Source: Peptoniphilus phoceensis (GTDB lineage Bacteria; Bacillota; Clostridia; Tissierellales; Peptoniphilaceae). Taken from it: a DNA stretch of 64,000 bases. Where the stretch lies: contig NZ_LN999809.1 in assembly GCF_001517665.2 (NCBI RefSeq), positions 248,001 to 312,000 of the forward strand, read 5' to 3'. This document shows, piece by piece, positions 38,071 through 47,543 of this stretch. The first letter of the stretch is position 1. The number at the start of each line of letters is the position of its first letter. A program made the position numbers and the translations under genes. The notes below the pieces were generated by a model. The model had not been told where the DNA came from. It did not search any database and was given only the letters and a program-made list of their open reading frames with translations.

Positions 38071-38481
38071 ATGAGAATAACACAAGAAACAGACTATGCA
38101 TTTCGCATTGTTAGTTATCTAGCCAAAAATGAGGGCAAAGTCGTTGGAGCACCGCAAATTGCTGAAAGCGAAGGTGTTACTAAAAGATTTACTCTTAGAA
38201 TTTTGAGAAAATTAAATTTAGCTGGTATTACAGATGCGAAAAGAGGATCGAAGGGCGGTTATTATTTAAAGAAACCCAAGGAAGAAATCACTTTGTATGA
38301 TATACTTATAGCTGTAGATGGTCCTATTGTAATTAATAGGTGTCTACAAGAAGAAGACTCATTTTGCAGTAAGCATTCTGATGGGGATACGAGAAATTGT
38401 AAATTCCACGTTGCCCTTGCTGGTATGCAATCAAATATTATTAAAATGTTTAAGAGTCAAACAATCGACAACTTCATATAA
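38071..38481 (+). CDS. Rrf2-family transcriptional regulator
   Basis: 136 residues: winged helix (MRITQETDYAFRIVSYLAKN; GAPQIAESEGVTKRFTLRILRKL) and a dimerisation helix. Three cysteines lie in RCLQEEDSFCSKHSDGDTRNC (spacing about C-x8-C-x9-C), as in Fe-S or redox-sensing Rrf2 proteins such as IscR or NsrR. Target genes are unknown, and no iron-sulfur assembly operon is in the window. AGGTGATAAA lies before the ATG. The ileS T-box leader begins within 10 bases of its stop. Confidence 0.88.
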   Translation: MRITQETDYAFRIVSYLAKNEGKVVGAPQIAESEGVTKRFTLRILRKLNLAGITDAKRGSKGGYYLKKPKEEITLYDILIAVDGPIVINRCLQEEDSFCSKHSDGDTRNCKFHVALAGMQSNIIKMFKSQTIDNFI

Positions 38482-38485
38482 GCTG

Positions 38486-38689
38486 TGAAGAGGACGGTAA
38501 TTTTTAAAAAAGTAAGAGAGCAGTTGTTTGGTGCGAAACTGTATTTTTAGATTTTACAGATCACCTTGGAGCTCAAAGGTCAAAAGCCTTTGCGTATTTT
38601 GCGTTAAAATATTTAAGTGATAGTTTCCTATAATTAGGGTGGTACCGCGGTTAGTTCGTCCCTTCTCTTTTGAGAGGGGACTTTTTTTA
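38486..38689 (+). promoter_or_regulatory. T-box riboswitch, isoleucine (ileS leader)
   Basis: The conserved antiterminator core AGGGTGGTACCGCGG lies at 38636-38650. Terminator stem GTCCCTTCTC (38658-38667) with GAGAGGGGAC (38672-38681) precedes T7. In stem I the base helix AGG/CCT and the bulge place ATC at 38560-38562, followed by a purine, as the specifier codon (Ile). Uncharged tRNA-Ile should stabilise the antiterminator and switch on ileS. No clear promoter separates it from the Rrf2 gene. Confidence 0.9.
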
Positions 38690-41913: not shown

Positions 41914-42633
41914 TTAAAGAACTGCTTCTAAAAATTTCTTTGTATTTAAATTATTTGTCTTATTGAAAATGTAATCGGGACTTCCCAAGTCTTCTACAAT
42001 TCCGTCTTTCATAAAGACAATCGTATCAGAAATTTCACGAGCAAAACCCATTTCGTGAGTAACTATAATCATAGTTAATTTGTCCTTTAAAGATTTAATT
42101 ACATTTAAAACTTCTTTTACCATTTCAGGATCAAGTGCTGAAGTTGGTTCATCAAAAAGGAGAACTTTTGGTTTATTTGCAAGAGCTCTGGCAATTGCGA
42201 CTCTTTGTTTTTGTCCACCAGATAATGAAGAAGGATAAAAATCTTTTTTATCTTCAAGTCCCATACTCTTTAAAAGATATATAGCATAATCTTTTGCAGA
42301 TTTTTCGTCTTCACCTTTTACTTTAATAGGTGCAAGAGTTATATTTTCTAAAACAGTTTTATTTGGAAATAAATTAAAATTTTGAAAGACCATTCCAATT
42401 TCCAATCTTATTTTTTCCAAATTTGGGTTGTCACCGCTTATTTCATAACCATCTAAATAAATATTTCCTCCATTTATTTTTTCTAGTAAATTTATTGACC
42501 TCAATAAGGTTGACTTTCCAGATCCACTTGCACCAATTATTGATGTTACAGTTAAATCATCTATATCTAAATTTATTCCTTTTAAAACTTCTTTATCGCC
42601 AAAGGACTTTTGTAAATTTTTAATTTTTATCAT
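41914..42633 (-). CDS. Polar amino-acid ABC transporter, ATP-binding protein
   Basis: 240 residues, GlnQ/ArtM type. Walker A GASGSGKST (about 34-42), signature LSGGQKQRVAIARAL, Walker B VLLFDEPTSALDPE and switch His in IIVTHEMGFA. It powers the permease encoded just upstream. ATG 42633 is chosen because GGAGGG lies 7-12 bases upstream on the minus strand; this region overlaps the permease 3' end. Third gene of an operon that starts with an Arg-type T-box, so arginine is the likely cargo. Confidence 0.93.
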   Translation of the reverse strand: MIKIKNLQKSFGDKEVLKGINLDIDDLTVTSIIGASGSGKSTLLRSINLLEKINGGNIYLDGYEISGDNPNLEKIRLEIGMVFQNFNLFPNKTVLENITLAPIKVKGEDEKSAKDYAIYLLKSMGLEDKKDFYPSSLSGGQKQRVAIARALANKPKVLLFDEPTSALDPEMVKEVLNVIKSLKDKLTMIIVTHEMGFAREISDTIVFMKDGIVEDLGSPDYIFNKTNNLNTKKFLEAVL

Positions 42634-43417
42634 ATTTTCCCTCCACAAATTTTAAGAGCCTAGATAAAGTAAAAGTTATAGCAAAATAAAGTAGAGAACC
42701 TATTATAAGAGGTTCTAGAGCTTTATAAGATGAACCCCTCACTAAATTTACATTATACATTATGTCAGTTACTCCAATAGTTGAAATAATTGAAGTTTCT
42801 TTTATAACTGCTATAAATTCGTTGGCAAGAGCTGGCAAAATATTTTTTGTGGCTTGGGGAAGAATCACTTCTTCCATTGCCAAAGATTTTTTCATTCCAA
42901 GAGATCTTGCAGCTTCCATTTGTCCCTTGTCAATGGCATTTATACCAGATCTTATAATTTCTGCAACATAGGCAGCGGAATTTAAACTAACAGCTATGAC
43001 GCCTGTTATATAGGCAAAAGATGAAATTGAGAGTCCAAAACTTTTAAAATCTATTATACTTGCGAGACCAAAGAAAATAAAAAATACTTGAGTAAGCATT
43101 GGAGTTCCTCTCACAATTTCTAGATATGCACTTGAAAAAACTTTTAGACTTTTTATTTCAGAAGATTTCATAAGGTACAAAAATAAACCAAAAATAGAAC
43201 CTAAGACCACAGAAATTAGTGAAAGTGATAAAGTGACCAAAAGCCCCTTAAAATAATATGAACTATACTTTGCAAAAATTTCTACACTTGTTCCAAAAAA
43301 GCCAAACAACAATTTTCCAGAAATTAATAAAAATATTAAAAAGGCTAGAATGACTAAGCCATTTATAAGATTATTTTTAGAAAATTTTTTATTTTCAATT
43401 TTATAAATATTTTCCAT
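42620..43417 (-). CDS. Polar amino-acid ABC transporter, permease
   Basis: 265 residues of the HisM/GlnP family, with about five membrane helices. The EAA loop reads EAARSLGMKKSLAMEEVILPQA, the coupling site for the ATPase. The N-terminal region also carries the typical ETPMLTQ-like motif as VRGTPMLTQVFFIFF. Second gene of the operon: it starts 8 bases after the binding-protein gene and overlaps the ATPase start by 14 bases. Confidence 0.93.
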   Translation of the reverse strand: MENIYKIENKKFSKNNLINGLVILAFLIFLLISGKLLFGFFGTSVEIFAKYSSYYFKGLLVTLSLSLISVVLGSIFGLFLYLMKSSEIKSLKVFSSAYLEIVRGTPMLTQVFFIFFGLASIIDFKSFGLSISSFAYITGVIAVSLNSAAYVAEIIRSGINAIDKGQMEAARSLGMKKSLAMEEVILPQATKNILPALANEFIAVIKETSIISTIGVTDIMYNVNLVRGSSYKALEPLIIGSLLYFAITFTLSRLLKFVEGKYDKN

Positions 43418-43425
43418 AAAGTCAC

Positions 43426-44235
43426 CTACTTAGTAGAAAGTTCTAGGGCTTCATCATAATATTTATCTAACTTACCTTCCTTTTCTAGTCTATCTAAAGT
43501 TTTGTTAACTGCTTCTAATAATTCTGTATCATTTTTATTTAGCCCAATTGCTGTGCCATCTAAGTCAGCATCAAAGAAGAATGAATCTTCGATTTTTAAA
43601 TTTTCGTTAGAAAGTTCATAATTGTCTCCAACACATTTTTCTACAATGATTCCATCAATAAGACCACCATCTAATTGAGCTACTAAATCAGGAGTTTTTG
43701 GAAGTGAAACAAGCTTTTTAATTTGCAAGTTTTTTCCAATATCTTCCTGACTAGTTGCAGTTTGAACACCAATTGTAAGATCCTTTAATGAATCTTTTTG
43801 AGTGTACTTTCCAAAGTCTTTTTTATTAACTAATAAATAATTTTTAGGTTCATAATAAACTTTAGAAAATGCCATGGATTTTTCTCTTTCAGAAGTTTTA
43901 GAAACTCCAGATATTGCAAGATCAATTACACCAGTATCTAAACTTGCGAGGACTGAAGAAAATTCCATATCAGAAATTTCAAGTTCAACACCAAGATCTT
44001 TTGCTATTTCTTTGCCTATAAAGACATCAAAGCCAAGAATTTCATCTTTTCCATTTATATTTTTGTGAAATTCAAAAGGTGGATAATTTGCATTGCAACC
44101 CATGACAATTTTTCCAGACTCTTTAATTTCATCAATTCTTGAATTAGAATTTTCCTTGGACTTATTAAAAAATATTATAAGACCAATTATAAGAACAGCC
44201 AAAATTATACTTGATATACTTATTATTTTTTTCAT
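43426..44235 (-). CDS. Amino-acid ABC transporter substrate-binding protein, membrane-anchored
   Basis: 269 residues, SBP_bac_3 family: GKIVMGCNANYPPFEF, GFDVFIGKEIAKDLG, LASLDTGVIDLAISGVSKTSER and TIGVQTATSQED line the two ligand lobes. The Arg and Asp that grip the amino group appear present (SKTSERE and the region near KTPDLVAQLDGG). The N-terminus is a long hydrophobic helix (about 6-24) without a lipobox Cys or clear signal-peptidase site, so it looks like an uncleaved anchor, unlike usual Gram-positive binding lipoproteins. First gene after the T-box. Confidence 0.9.
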   Translation of the reverse strand: MKKIISISSIILAVLIIGLIIFFNKSKENSNSRIDEIKESGKIVMGCNANYPPFEFHKNINGKDEILGFDVFIGKEIAKDLGVELEISDMEFSSVLASLDTGVIDLAISGVSKTSEREKSMAFSKVYYEPKNYLLVNKKDFGKYTQKDSLKDLTIGVQTATSQEDIGKNLQIKKLVSLPKTPDLVAQLDGGLIDGIIVEKCVGDNYELSNENLKIEDSFFFDADLDGTAIGLNKNDTELLEAVNKTLDRLEKEGKLDKYYDEALELSTK

Positions 44236-44253: not shown

Positions 44254-44468
44254 TAAAAAAAATCGCCTCTATGAAAGAGGCGAAGTCCGCGGTACCACTC
44301 TAATTATCTTTTAGATATCTCAAAACTTTAAGGCAGTTAACCTCTGTAAATACTAATTTCCTTACAGAATCTCTGTGGTTCTATTATATTCTTTCCACTT
44401 ACAGGCTTTCAGCTAACCCTGCTCTCTAAAAAGTTTATGAGAATACTTTTTGTCCACTTCATTGATTT
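44254..44468 (-). promoter_or_regulatory. T-box riboswitch, probable arginine specifier AGA (ABC transporter leader)
   Basis: On the minus strand, core AGAGTGGTACCGCGG at 44287-44301; terminator TCGCCTCT/AGAGGCGA (44276-44283 with 44263-44270) then a U tract. In stem I, base helix GTGG/CCAC (3' strand at 44375-44378) and upper helix TATTCT/AGAATA bracket a loop in which the triplet plus purine before CCAC is AGA-A (AGA at 44380-44382). AGA is an Arg codon. Specifier placement is by hand alignment with the ileS leader. Confidence 0.85.
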
Positions 44469-44474
44469 CACAAT

Positions 44475-44503
44475 ACATTACTATGATAAATTATTTTTGT
44501 CAA
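44475..44503 (-). promoter_or_regulatory. Promoter of the ABC transporter operon
   Basis: Minus strand -35 TTGACA (44498-44503), 17-bp spacer, -10 TAATGT (44475-44480). Confidence 0.7.
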
Positions 44504-44636
44504 GTCTTTTTATAAATATTTTAAAAATTATTTTAGATAAAGATTAAATTCAATTTTTTAAAAAATTTTTATTTTTGACATAATATAGATAGAATTTCGT
44601 AAAAAAGATTTTATAAAGAATTTTTAAAAATTTTAC
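44504..44636. other. AT-rich spacer between divergent T-box promoters
   Basis: About 130 bases with no gene. It contains a stray TTGACA at about 44575-44580 without a matching -10 box. No operator was identified. Confidence 0.5.
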
Positions 44637-44665
44637 TTGACAAAATAAATTTAACTTGTTAGGAT
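44637..44665 (+). promoter_or_regulatory. Promoter of argGH
   Basis: -35 TTGACA (44637-44642), 17-bp spacer, extended -10 TGtTAGGAT (hexamer 44660-44665). Confidence 0.75.
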
Positions 44666-44671
44666 ATCAAA

Positions 44672-44890
44672 CAATAAAAGTTTTGAAAAGCGAAGTAAAA
44701 TTATCCAAGACTTGAAGAGAGTTTTCGTTTGCTGGGAGAAAATAGGGAGGATAATTTGAAATAGGAGCTTGGAACTGGCATCTCGATATTTAGATTTGCC
44801 CGGTTATGCGTTATAGTTTTTGAGGTATAGAAATATACAAATTTGGGTGGTACCACGTTCTTCGTCCCTTGATAGGGGCGATTTTTTTAT
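44672..44890 (+). promoter_or_regulatory. T-box riboswitch, probable arginine specifier AGG (argGH leader)
   Basis: Core TGGGTGGTACCACG at 44844-44857; terminator CGTCCC (44863-44868) with GGGGCG (44875-44880) then T7. Stem I: base helix AAGC (44688-44691) with GCTT (44767-44770), AGTA loop-E motif at 44694-44697, upper helix AAATTATCC with GGATAATTT (44749-44757). The triplet before the purine preceding GCTT is AGG (44763-44765), an Arg codon, which agrees with the genes controlled. Confidence 0.88.
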
Positions 44891-44950: not shown

Positions 44951-46171
44951 ATGAAAAATACAAATTATAAAAAAATTGCTCTAGCATATTCAGGTGGTCT
45001 TGATACTTCTATTATCATCCCATGGTTAAAAGAAAACTACAATTGTGAAGTTATCGCAGTAGTTGGAAATGTCGGCCAAGAAAAGGAACTTGAAGGTCTA
45101 GAAGAAAAAGCTATTAAAACAGGAGCTTCGAAAATTTATATAGTTGATCTTGTAGAAGAATATGTAAAAGATTTTGTATTCCCAACACTTAAAATGGGAG
45201 CAAAATATGAAAAAAATTATCTCTTGGGAACAGCCACTGCAAGACCTCTTATAGCAAAATCCTTAGTGGAAATTGCAAAGAAAGAAAATTGTGATGCAAT
45301 TTGTCATGGATGTACTGGAAAGGGAAATGATCAAATTCGTTTTGAAATGGGAATAAAGCATTTTGCTCCTGATATGCCTATTATTGCACCTTGGAGGATT
45401 TGGGACATTAAATCTCGTGAAGAAGAAATAGATTATGCAGAAGAACACAATATTCCGCTAAAGATTTCAAGAGAAACAAATTATTCAAAAGATTTAAATA
45501 TTATGCACTTATCTCATGAAGGATTAGATTTAGAAGATCCAAAAAATTATCCTGACTTTGATAAAATTTTGGAACTTTCAGTTTCTCCAATGAAGGCAAA
45601 AGATGAAGTTTGTGACATTGAAATAGAATTTAAAGCAGCAGAAGCTATTGCTGTTAATGGAAAAACAATGAGTCCTGCAGAAATTTTAAGCTATTTAAAT
45701 AAAGTTGGCGGTGAAAATGGAATTGGTATTGATGATATTGTTGAAAATCGTCTTGTTGGAATGAAAAGTCGTGGAGTTTATGAAAATCCAGCAGGAGCGA
45801 TACTTTATAAAGCATTAGAAATTTTAGAATCAATTACTCTTGATAAGGATTCATCACACTTAAAGAATTATCTTTCTATAAAATTTGCAGATCTTGTCTA
45901 CGATGGAAAGTGGTATTCAAATTCTATCAAGGGACTTTTAGCTTTTGCAGATGAAATTACAAAAAATGTAAGTGGAAAGGTTAAGTTAAAACTTTATAAG
46001 GGAAATATTATTCCAGCAGGGGTAGAGTCAAAGTATTCTCTATACAATGAAGATTTAGCTTCCTTTGGAGATGGAGCAGAAGATTTATATTCTCACAGTG
46101 ACGCCGATGGTTTTATCAATCTTTATTCTCTTCAAACGCTAGTTGATGCTAAGATAAATAAAGGAGTTTAA
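44951..46171 (+). CDS. argG: Argininosuccinate synthase
   Basis: 406 residues. It joins citrulline and aspartate with ATP to give argininosuccinate. N-terminal PP-loop [17 protein letters not shown] (about 12-28), then [13 protein letters not shown] and the citrulline/aspartate-binding [15 protein letters not shown] region. It is of normal length. GGAGG lies before the ATG. It leads the argGH operon behind an Arg T-box; the upstream genes to make citrulline are not in the window. Confidence 0.96.
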
Positions 46172-46172
46172 T

Positions 46173-47543
46173 ATGTATTTATGGGGATCTCACTTAGAAG
46201 GGCTAGAGGATTTTACTCATCAATTTAACAAGTCCATAGATTTTGACAAAATTTTATTTGAAGAAGATATTAGAGGCTCTCTTGCACATGTTGAGATGCT
46301 CTCTAAACAAGAAATTATAAGTAAAGAGGATTGTAAAATAATTTCTAATGAGTTAAAAAATATTTTACAAGAAATTAAAAATAAAGAGTTAGAAATAAAT
46401 TTAAATGAAGAAGATATTCACTCTTTTGTTGAAAATGAACTTACAAAAAGAGTTGGAAATGTGGGGAAAAAACTCCACACTGCAAGATCTAGAAATGATC
46501 AGTGTGCTGTGGATTTAAGACTTTATTCCAAAAAAGTTTTAGGTGAAATTAAAGAAGATATCTTAAATCTCATTAAAGTAATTATTGAAATTGCTGAAGA
46601 AAATAAAAAAACAATTATGCCAGCTTTTACTCACATGCAACATGCACAAGTTACAAGTTTTGCTCATTATATCTTATCCTATGCTCAGATGTTAAAAAGA
46701 GATTTAGAAAGACTTTATGATACAAATGAAAGGCTTGATGAAAATCCTTTGGGTTCTTGTGCTCTTGCAACGACAAGTTTTAATATAGATAGGTTTATGA
46801 CTAGTGAAAAACTTGGATTTAAAAAGCCAACAGAAAATTCTATGGATTCAGTTTCTGATAGAGATTATGTACTTGAAATTTTATTTAACAATTCCTTAAT
46901 TATGACTCACTTGTCAAGACTCTGTGAAGAGTTAATTTACTTTTCCAGCAGCGAGTATAATTTTATTAAATTTTCAGGAAAATTTTCTACAGGATCAAGT
47001 ATAATGCCTCAAAAGAAAAATCCAGACATGGCAGAGTTAGTTAGGGGAAAAAGTGGCAGAGCTTTTGGAGATCTCTTTACAGTTTTTACAATTTTAAAAG
47101 GGACAACTCTTGCATACAACAAGGACTTTCAAGAAGATAAGGAGGCGCTTTTTGACTCAGTAAAAACAACTTCATCTTGTCTAAAAATTATGAGTGCAAT
47201 AATAGAAAGTCTAGAACTTAATAAAAAGAAGATGAGAGAGTCGGCAGAACTAGGTTATTTAAATGCGACAGATCTTGCAGACTATCTAGTTGTAAAGGGT
47301 CTTGCCTTCAGGGAAGCCTATGACCTTGTGGGTCAAATTGTAAATTATGCTTTGAAAAATAATTTAAAATTAGAAGATATTTCATTAGAAAAATACAAAG
47401 ATTTTAGTGAGATTTTTGGAGAAGATCTTTTTGATTTTATTGAAATTGAAAATTCTTTAAAAAATAGAAAAGTTTACGGTGGACCTGCAGAAGAAGCTGT
47501 GAAAATACAAATTAAAAATTTAAAAAAGTCATTAAATTTATAA
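46173..47543 (+). CDS. argH: Argininosuccinate lyase
   Basis: 456 residues of the fumarase/aspartase superfamily, cleaving argininosuccinate to arginine and fumarate. HTARSRNDQ, FTHMQHAQVTSFAHY and the flexible catalytic signature GSSIMPQKKNPD (with the catalytic Ser) are all present. It starts one base after the argG stop, so translation is coupled. Followed by a perfect terminator hairpin. Confidence 0.96.
   Translation: MYLWGSHLEGLEDFTHQFNKSIDFDKILFEEDIRGSLAHVEMLSKQEIISKEDCKIISNELKNILQEIKNKELEINLNEEDIHSFVENELTKRVGNVGKKLHTARSRNDQCAVDLRLYSKKVLGEIKEDILNLIKVIIEIAEENKKTIMPAFTHMQHAQVTSFAHYILSYAQMLKRDLERLYDTNERLDENPLGSCALATTSFNIDRFMTSEKLGFKKPTENSMDSVSDRDYVLEILFNNSLIMTHLSRLCEELIYFSSSEYNFIKFSGKFSTGSSIMPQKKNPDMAELVRGKSGRAFGDLFTVFTILKGTTLAYNKDFQEDKEALFDSVKTTSSCLKIMSAIIESLELNKKKMRESAELGYLNATDLADYLVVKGLAFREAYDLVGQIVNYALKNNLKLEDISLEKYKDFSEIFGEDLFDFIEIENSLKNRKVYGGPAEEAVKIQIKNLKKSLNL

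Follow-up and report, generated by a model that had tools for sequence, protein, structure and literature searches.

Arginine-class T-box leaders are collected in TBDB, where, according to the accessible parts of its report, arginine specifiers include AGA (0.24) and AGG (0.04) (PMC7778990). Among the entries of Table 2 of PMC11477304 are C. difficile T-boxes located before the genes for argininosuccinate synthase (CD1785), argininosuccinate lyase (CD2500) and N-acetyl-gamma-glutamyl-phosphate reductase (CD2034), as well as before those for two amino-acid ABC binding proteins (CD0750 and CD1774-1776). Naming the cargo of a transporter by the specifier of its leader, the logic that we also follow here, was applied by Wels et al. 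(2008), and arginine is absent from the main text of that paper, as far as its accessible version goes (PMC2494555).

The locus described here is a pair of divergent T-box leaders in the window, by which we mean the whole stretch of 64,000 nucleotides of Peptoniphilus phoceensis DNA that was analysed. Its leaders share with the transcriptional arginine-class RF00230 leaders of TBDB the Stem I with its specifier, the UGGN bulge, the antiterminator and terminator, and the downstream amino-acid genes; AGG, however, is a minority arginine specifier in the TBDB report as accessible (PMC7778990) and the majority one (24/40) in the argG leaders of the family studied here. The switch type and the targets (argG, argH and an ABC importer) are like those of C. 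difficile and thus are not new, whereas the C. difficile leaders listed in PMC11477304 belong to separate locus tags and those of the window diverge from a single gap and carry different codons. Among the literature matches listed, no report of this divergent pair or of isoacceptor splitting of arginine T-boxes was found, and published T-box surveys may include such leaders.

Both leaders lie inside the 715-base gap between argG and the oppositely oriented gene for the substrate-binding protein of the importer (Table 1). As originally predicted, T-boxes are present on both strands, since the RF00230 search gave scores that exceed the gathering score of 93 bits for each of them. The -35 element of the promoter-like site on the importer side is kept in all four relatives whose gap was read.

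Table 1. Features of the importer/argGH locus (positions in the window)
Feature	Position	Strand	Basis or remark
Importer ATPase	41914..42648	-	ORF from TTG; true start may lie further in
Importer permease	42620..43417	-	
Substrate-binding protein of a polar amino-acid ABC importer, probably for arginine	43426..44235	-	Sequence comparison
Intrinsic terminator, importer leader	44263..44283	-	5' arm CGCCTC common to antiterminator
T-box leader of the importer, from Stem I to antiterminator	44273..44471	-	RF00230, 112.1 bits, E 5.7e-24
T-box bulge UGGU, importer leader	44294..44297	-	Expected partner: tRNA 3' end NCCA
Specifier codon AGA (Arg), followed by A and helix CCAC	44380..44382	-	Rfam codon column and leader alignments
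Promoter-like site TTGACA-17-TAATGT, importer side	44475..44503	-	By eye; absent from the tool's list
Sigma-70-type promoter-like site TTGACA-17-TAGGAT, upstream of argGH leader	44637..44665	+	
T-box leader of argGH	44674..44872	+	RF00230, 108.0 bits, E 6.7e-23
Specifier codon AGG (Arg), followed by A and helix GCUU	44763..44765	+	Rfam codon column and leader alignments
T-box bulge UGGU, argGH leader	44848..44851	+	
Intrinsic terminator, argGH leader	44862..44881	+	5' arm CGTCCC common to antiterminator
argG, argininosuccinate synthase	44951..46171	+	NF001770, 551.6 bits, above cut-off
argH, argininosuccinate lyase	46173..47543	+	TIGR00838, 593 bits, above cut-off

Explicit terminators had also been claimed for both leaders, and a hairpin followed by a run of U was indeed found at the end of each. 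Three terminator-like sites were detected in the region, one of them nested in the plus-strand site, compared with a mean of 0.2 in shuffled sequences. In both leaders one stretch serves as 5' arm of the terminator and as 3' arm of the antiterminator; by this shared arm and by free and constrained folds, the two structures exclude each other. Without constraint, the end stretches adopted the terminator fold (-15.8 and -14.9 kcal/mol), and when the antiterminator was enforced the energies rose to -3.8 and -3.6 kcal/mol. The specifier helix with an unpaired specifier appeared in the free fold of the argG leader only when the terminator was included and in that of the importer leader only when it was left out, so that most of the support for the leader structure comes from the covariance model and from covariation. 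The cmscan alignment also covers Stem II, IIA/B and Stem III; in the argG leader, several of them contain non-standard pairs. The antiterminator bulge seen in the window is also UGGU, or else UGGC, in 50/50 homologous leaders.

Folding by hand had placed AGA in the specifier loop of the importer leader and AGG in that of the argGH leader, and the same codons were recovered in the Rfam alignment and in two alignments of homologous leaders, the first of 30 sequences and the second of 50 (40 before argG and 10 before the importer). When covariance was examined for a non-arginine specifier, the helix that fixes the reading frame was found to covary and the specifier was AGR in 50/50 leaders: AGG in 24 and AGA in 16 of the 40 argG leaders, AGA in nine and AGG in one of the ten importer leaders. 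In the alignment of 30, the helix next to the specifier showed two-sided changes in 4/4 pairs, with 94.2% of cells paired, and the helices that bound the specifier loop (7-8/109-110 and 15-18/102-105) covaried within a structure drawn from these same sequences. The 13-pair structure, likewise drawn from the sequences on which it was scored, was 95.1% paired, a figure that dropped to 43-59% when the structure was shifted along the alignment by one, two or three columns. In shuffles that ignore the relatedness of the leaders, four of five covariation measures were reached by 0/500 and the number of pair types by 18/500. The outer pair of the antiterminator was unpaired in 12/30 leaders.

The bases that flank the specifier behave differently from each other across the 50 leaders, the 5' neighbor being variable (U 24, A 20, G 6) and the 3' neighbor always a purine (A 42, G 8). 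In T-boxes with a long Stem I, a purine has been described that stacks below the specifier-anticodon duplex, according to the accessible part of PMC7583486. Both shifted frames were rejected, because neither specifies one amino acid across the 50 leaders and the AGR frame alone does. Read one base earlier, the codons become UAG in 24, AAG in 20 and GAG in 6, with a stop in 24/50 leaders including both of the window; read one base later, they become GAA (23), GAG (2), GGA (19) and GGG (6), a mixture of 25 Glu and 25 Gly.

As controls we used eight other T-boxes of the same genome whose targets are clear. In six of them the amino acid named by the Rfam codon column is the right one, namely Val for valS, Ile for ileS, Thr for thrS, and Met for O-acetylhomoserine sulfhydrylase, metA and an ABC ATPase with a NIL domain. 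The ileS leader, which had served as the guide for folding by hand, proved to be a T-box with an AUC specifier (38476-38666, 107.4 bits); the ileS and metA stretches themselves do not reach the cut-off of the models that match them best, and that of ileS is only part of the gene. In the other two controls the expected codon is displaced from the column by one base in the 5' direction: the column reads CCG where the Ser codon is UCC in the serS leader, and ACA where the Tyr codon is UAC in the tyrS leader; the Rfam codon column alone is thus not infallible. The same 5' shift would turn both specifiers of the window into UAG.

The tyrS leader (L012, G000:C10 161838-161947) is a very short T-box of 110 bases and 29 bits, in whose alignment most of the upper part of Stem I is absent, and the serS leader (L008, G000:C11 122537-122699) has no Stem II region in the Rfam alignment. 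Two adjacent genes for TrpX-like binding proteins (L001 and L002, G000:C9 70249-71833) each have a T-box of their own, with a Phe (UUC) and a Tyr (UAC) specifier, respectively. These specifiers fit an aromatic cargo for the two proteins, which score below the NCBIfam cut-off, and provide no independent check of the codon rule.

ARAGORN found tRNA-Arg isoacceptors UCU, CCU and ACG in this genome, all with G73, so that the bulge U of both window leaders would face the discriminator base as a wobble pair. In the other leaders of the genome for which a tRNA was found (Phe, Tyr, Met, Val, Ser and Thr), the bulge match is Watson-Crick; tRNA-Ile(GAU) is not in the ARAGORN list of this genome. Across the 50 leaders the variable bulge base is U in 45 and C in 5, never A or G, in agreement with G73 of tRNA-Arg. 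Wobble at this position is accepted in TBDB, and similar exceptions are reported for Trp in the accessible parts of PMC7778990.

The importer had been predicted to carry arginine, and this gains support from the best solved relative of its binding protein, PDB 4i62 (E 6.3e-53), described in the accessible part of PMC4022495 as the arginine-binding protein AbpA of S. pneumoniae. None of the NCBIfam arginine models reaches its cut-off with the importer proteins. We considered whether the importer specifier could instead lie one base later, as GAA (Glu), in front of an importer for glutamate or glutamine. The specifier of nine of the ten importer leaders would then be GAA or GAG and hence mean Glu; A73 in the tRNA-Glu of this genome would be a Watson-Crick partner for the bulge U; and the nearest NCBIfam model of the ATPase is GlnQ, which it matches below the cut-off. 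This frame, however, would assign GGA (Gly) to the first importer leader of genome G084 and either Gly or Glu to the argG leaders. It would also remove the purine spacer ahead of the helix, and the bulge C in the leaders of G086 and G100 would not pair with A73, a base known from the tRNA-Glu of the present genome. Moreover, 0/8 controls need a 3' shift, both deviating ones being shifted 5', and the binding protein is nearest to arginine-binding AbpA. We regard the glutamate reading as very improbable. Considering that the binding protein resembles AbpA, that the operon has an arginine leader and that it co-occurs with argGH, we predict arginine as the most likely cargo of the importer.

To what extent the two leaders are conserved was determined in 130 genomes of the family, with thresholds of E 1e-80 for ArgG matches and E 1e-45 for homologues of the binding protein. 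ArgG was matched in 41/130 genomes, and a T-box on the same strand was present upstream in 40/41, eight of the 40 falling below the cut-off at 78-90 bits (E 3e-15 or better). The distance from the end of the T-box to the ArgG match is 44-208 bases in 38/40; in G101 and G102 it is 386 and 725 bases, and the intervening ATG frames are all of 16 codons or fewer. Homologues of the binding protein were found in 11/130 genomes, with a T-box upstream in 9/11; the search found none before the homologues of G011 and G121. Within the genus of this organism (14 genomes), the six genomes with argG are also the six with the binding protein, and eight have neither at the thresholds used.

The sole argG without a T-box among the 41 argG genomes is that of G011, which has the importer gene too. 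Here the gap between argG and the importer gene measures 44 bases (L051/L068, G011:C48 2840-2950), too small for the usual promoters, and both leaders are missing; this absence may be either a natural loss by deletion or a misassembly. In G084 the importer operon (L195, G084:C26:86500-93500) has two T-boxes (L095, 2630-2405 and 1456-1255, both on the minus strand): an AGG leader precedes the binding-protein gene, and a weaker T-box (79.1 bits) with AGA lies between that gene and the permease gene. G004 (L054, L055 and L057; C5 and C26) has argG in two overlapping pieces on C5, further argG pieces, some with stops, on the small contig C26, and a second, broken copy of the importer (L070).

Collectively, these observations lead us to conclude, with high confidence, that each leader is a T-box riboswitch of the transcriptional type with specificity for tRNA-Arg and that the pair forms an arginine-supply module. 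From the parts, the conservation and the sequence logic observed in the leaders, we infer tRNA binding, switching and a response to starvation, as follows. In arginine shortage, uncharged tRNA-Arg would pair through its anticodon with the specifier of Stem I (AGA or AGG) and through its 3' NCCA with the UGGU bulge, thereby stabilizing the antiterminator and allowing RNA polymerase to go on into the importer genes (minus strand) and into argGH (plus strand). When tRNA-Arg is charged, the terminator would prevail. The expected reader of the importer leader is tRNA-Arg(UCU); that of the argGH leader would best be tRNA-Arg(CCU), perhaps also tRNA-Arg(UCU) via wobble.

The AGA/AGG split between the two leaders is the less ordinary part of this locus, and it is testable. 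Both leaders are present in seven genomes of three genera, five from the genus of this organism (G000, G012, G001, G007 and G004, of which G012 is the same species as G000) and G086 and G100 from two others, and in 7/7 the importer has AGA and argG has AGG. A Fisher test associates the codon with the type of gene (p 0.011), but it treats the rows as independent when they are related and represent few independent lineages. Since tRNA-Arg(UCU) and tRNA-Arg(CCU) are both encoded in the genome, uptake and synthesis could answer to different isoacceptors. In the 46 mechanical open frames of the window, AGA accounts for 452/592 arginine codons (76%) and AGG for 99/592 (17%). According to the selective-charging argument of Elf et al., as quoted in section 7 of PMC2494555, the tRNA of a common codon should discharge first; AGA being the commonest codon, tRNA-Arg(UCU) should lose its charge first and tRNA-Arg(CCU) stay charged longer, if the amounts of the two tRNAs are similar. 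The split may thus be functional, with the importer leader sensing UCU and the argGH leader CCU, so that uptake would respond at an early stage and synthesis at a later one, a possibility that we put forward only tentatively.

An account to which we give about an even chance is that the choice of A or G at the end of the specifier is neutral, with tRNA-Arg(UCU) as the main reader of both leaders (of AGG via wobble) and with the codon inherited along with the gene. The argG codon tracks the likeness of ArgG (pairwise identity) and not the host: the 24 AGG leaders accompany ArgG proteins at least 56% identical to that of the window, and the 16 AGA leaders proteins with 50-55% identity. Within genus g3, G035 has a window-like ArgG (83%) and an AGG leader, and the 14 other argG leaders of g3 have AGA; within g18, G082 has AGG but G083 has AGA. 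AGA and AGG are separated by a single transition, and the AGG of the first importer leader of G084 also argues against tuning. Among the same 24 AGG leaders, 27/39 purine-only columns are invariant, so that constancy of a single such column is not unusual. Speaking against neutrality, AGG is unchanged in 24/24 leaders down to 45% identity. Against neutrality also stand the preference of T-boxes for Watson-Crick pairing with one tRNA, reported in the accessible parts of PMC7778990, and the occurrence of tRNA-Arg(CCU) in this genome and in G101.

In line with inheritance of the codon with the gene, and against tuning, the argG of G035 (L071, G035:C2 32632-33846) could have been acquired by horizontal transfer together with its leader. 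Pattern searches found tRNA-Arg(CCU) in at least 91/130 genomes, a lower bound because the patterns miss real tRNAs. They had also suggested that genus g31 has AGG leaders without tRNA-Arg(CCU); this was rejected for G101, an AGG-leader genome in which ARAGORN, run at its tRNA sites, found a tRNA-Arg(CCU) with G73. This tRNA (L237, G101:C1 1572426-1572498) is divergent, with a D-arm unlike the usual GCTCAG...GAGC form.

Taken together, our data show that in nearly all argG-bearing genomes of the family that were searched (40/41) argG is preceded by a T-box with an arginine codon, and the arginine specifier in the divergent leader points to arginine as the cargo of an importer that is otherwise unassigned. 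That regulatory RNAs might choose among isoacceptors for their sensitivity to starvation is suggested by the argument of Elf et al., as quoted in the accessible part of PMC2494555, and the recurrent AGA/AGG split offers a natural test of whether they pick isoacceptors to set that sensitivity.
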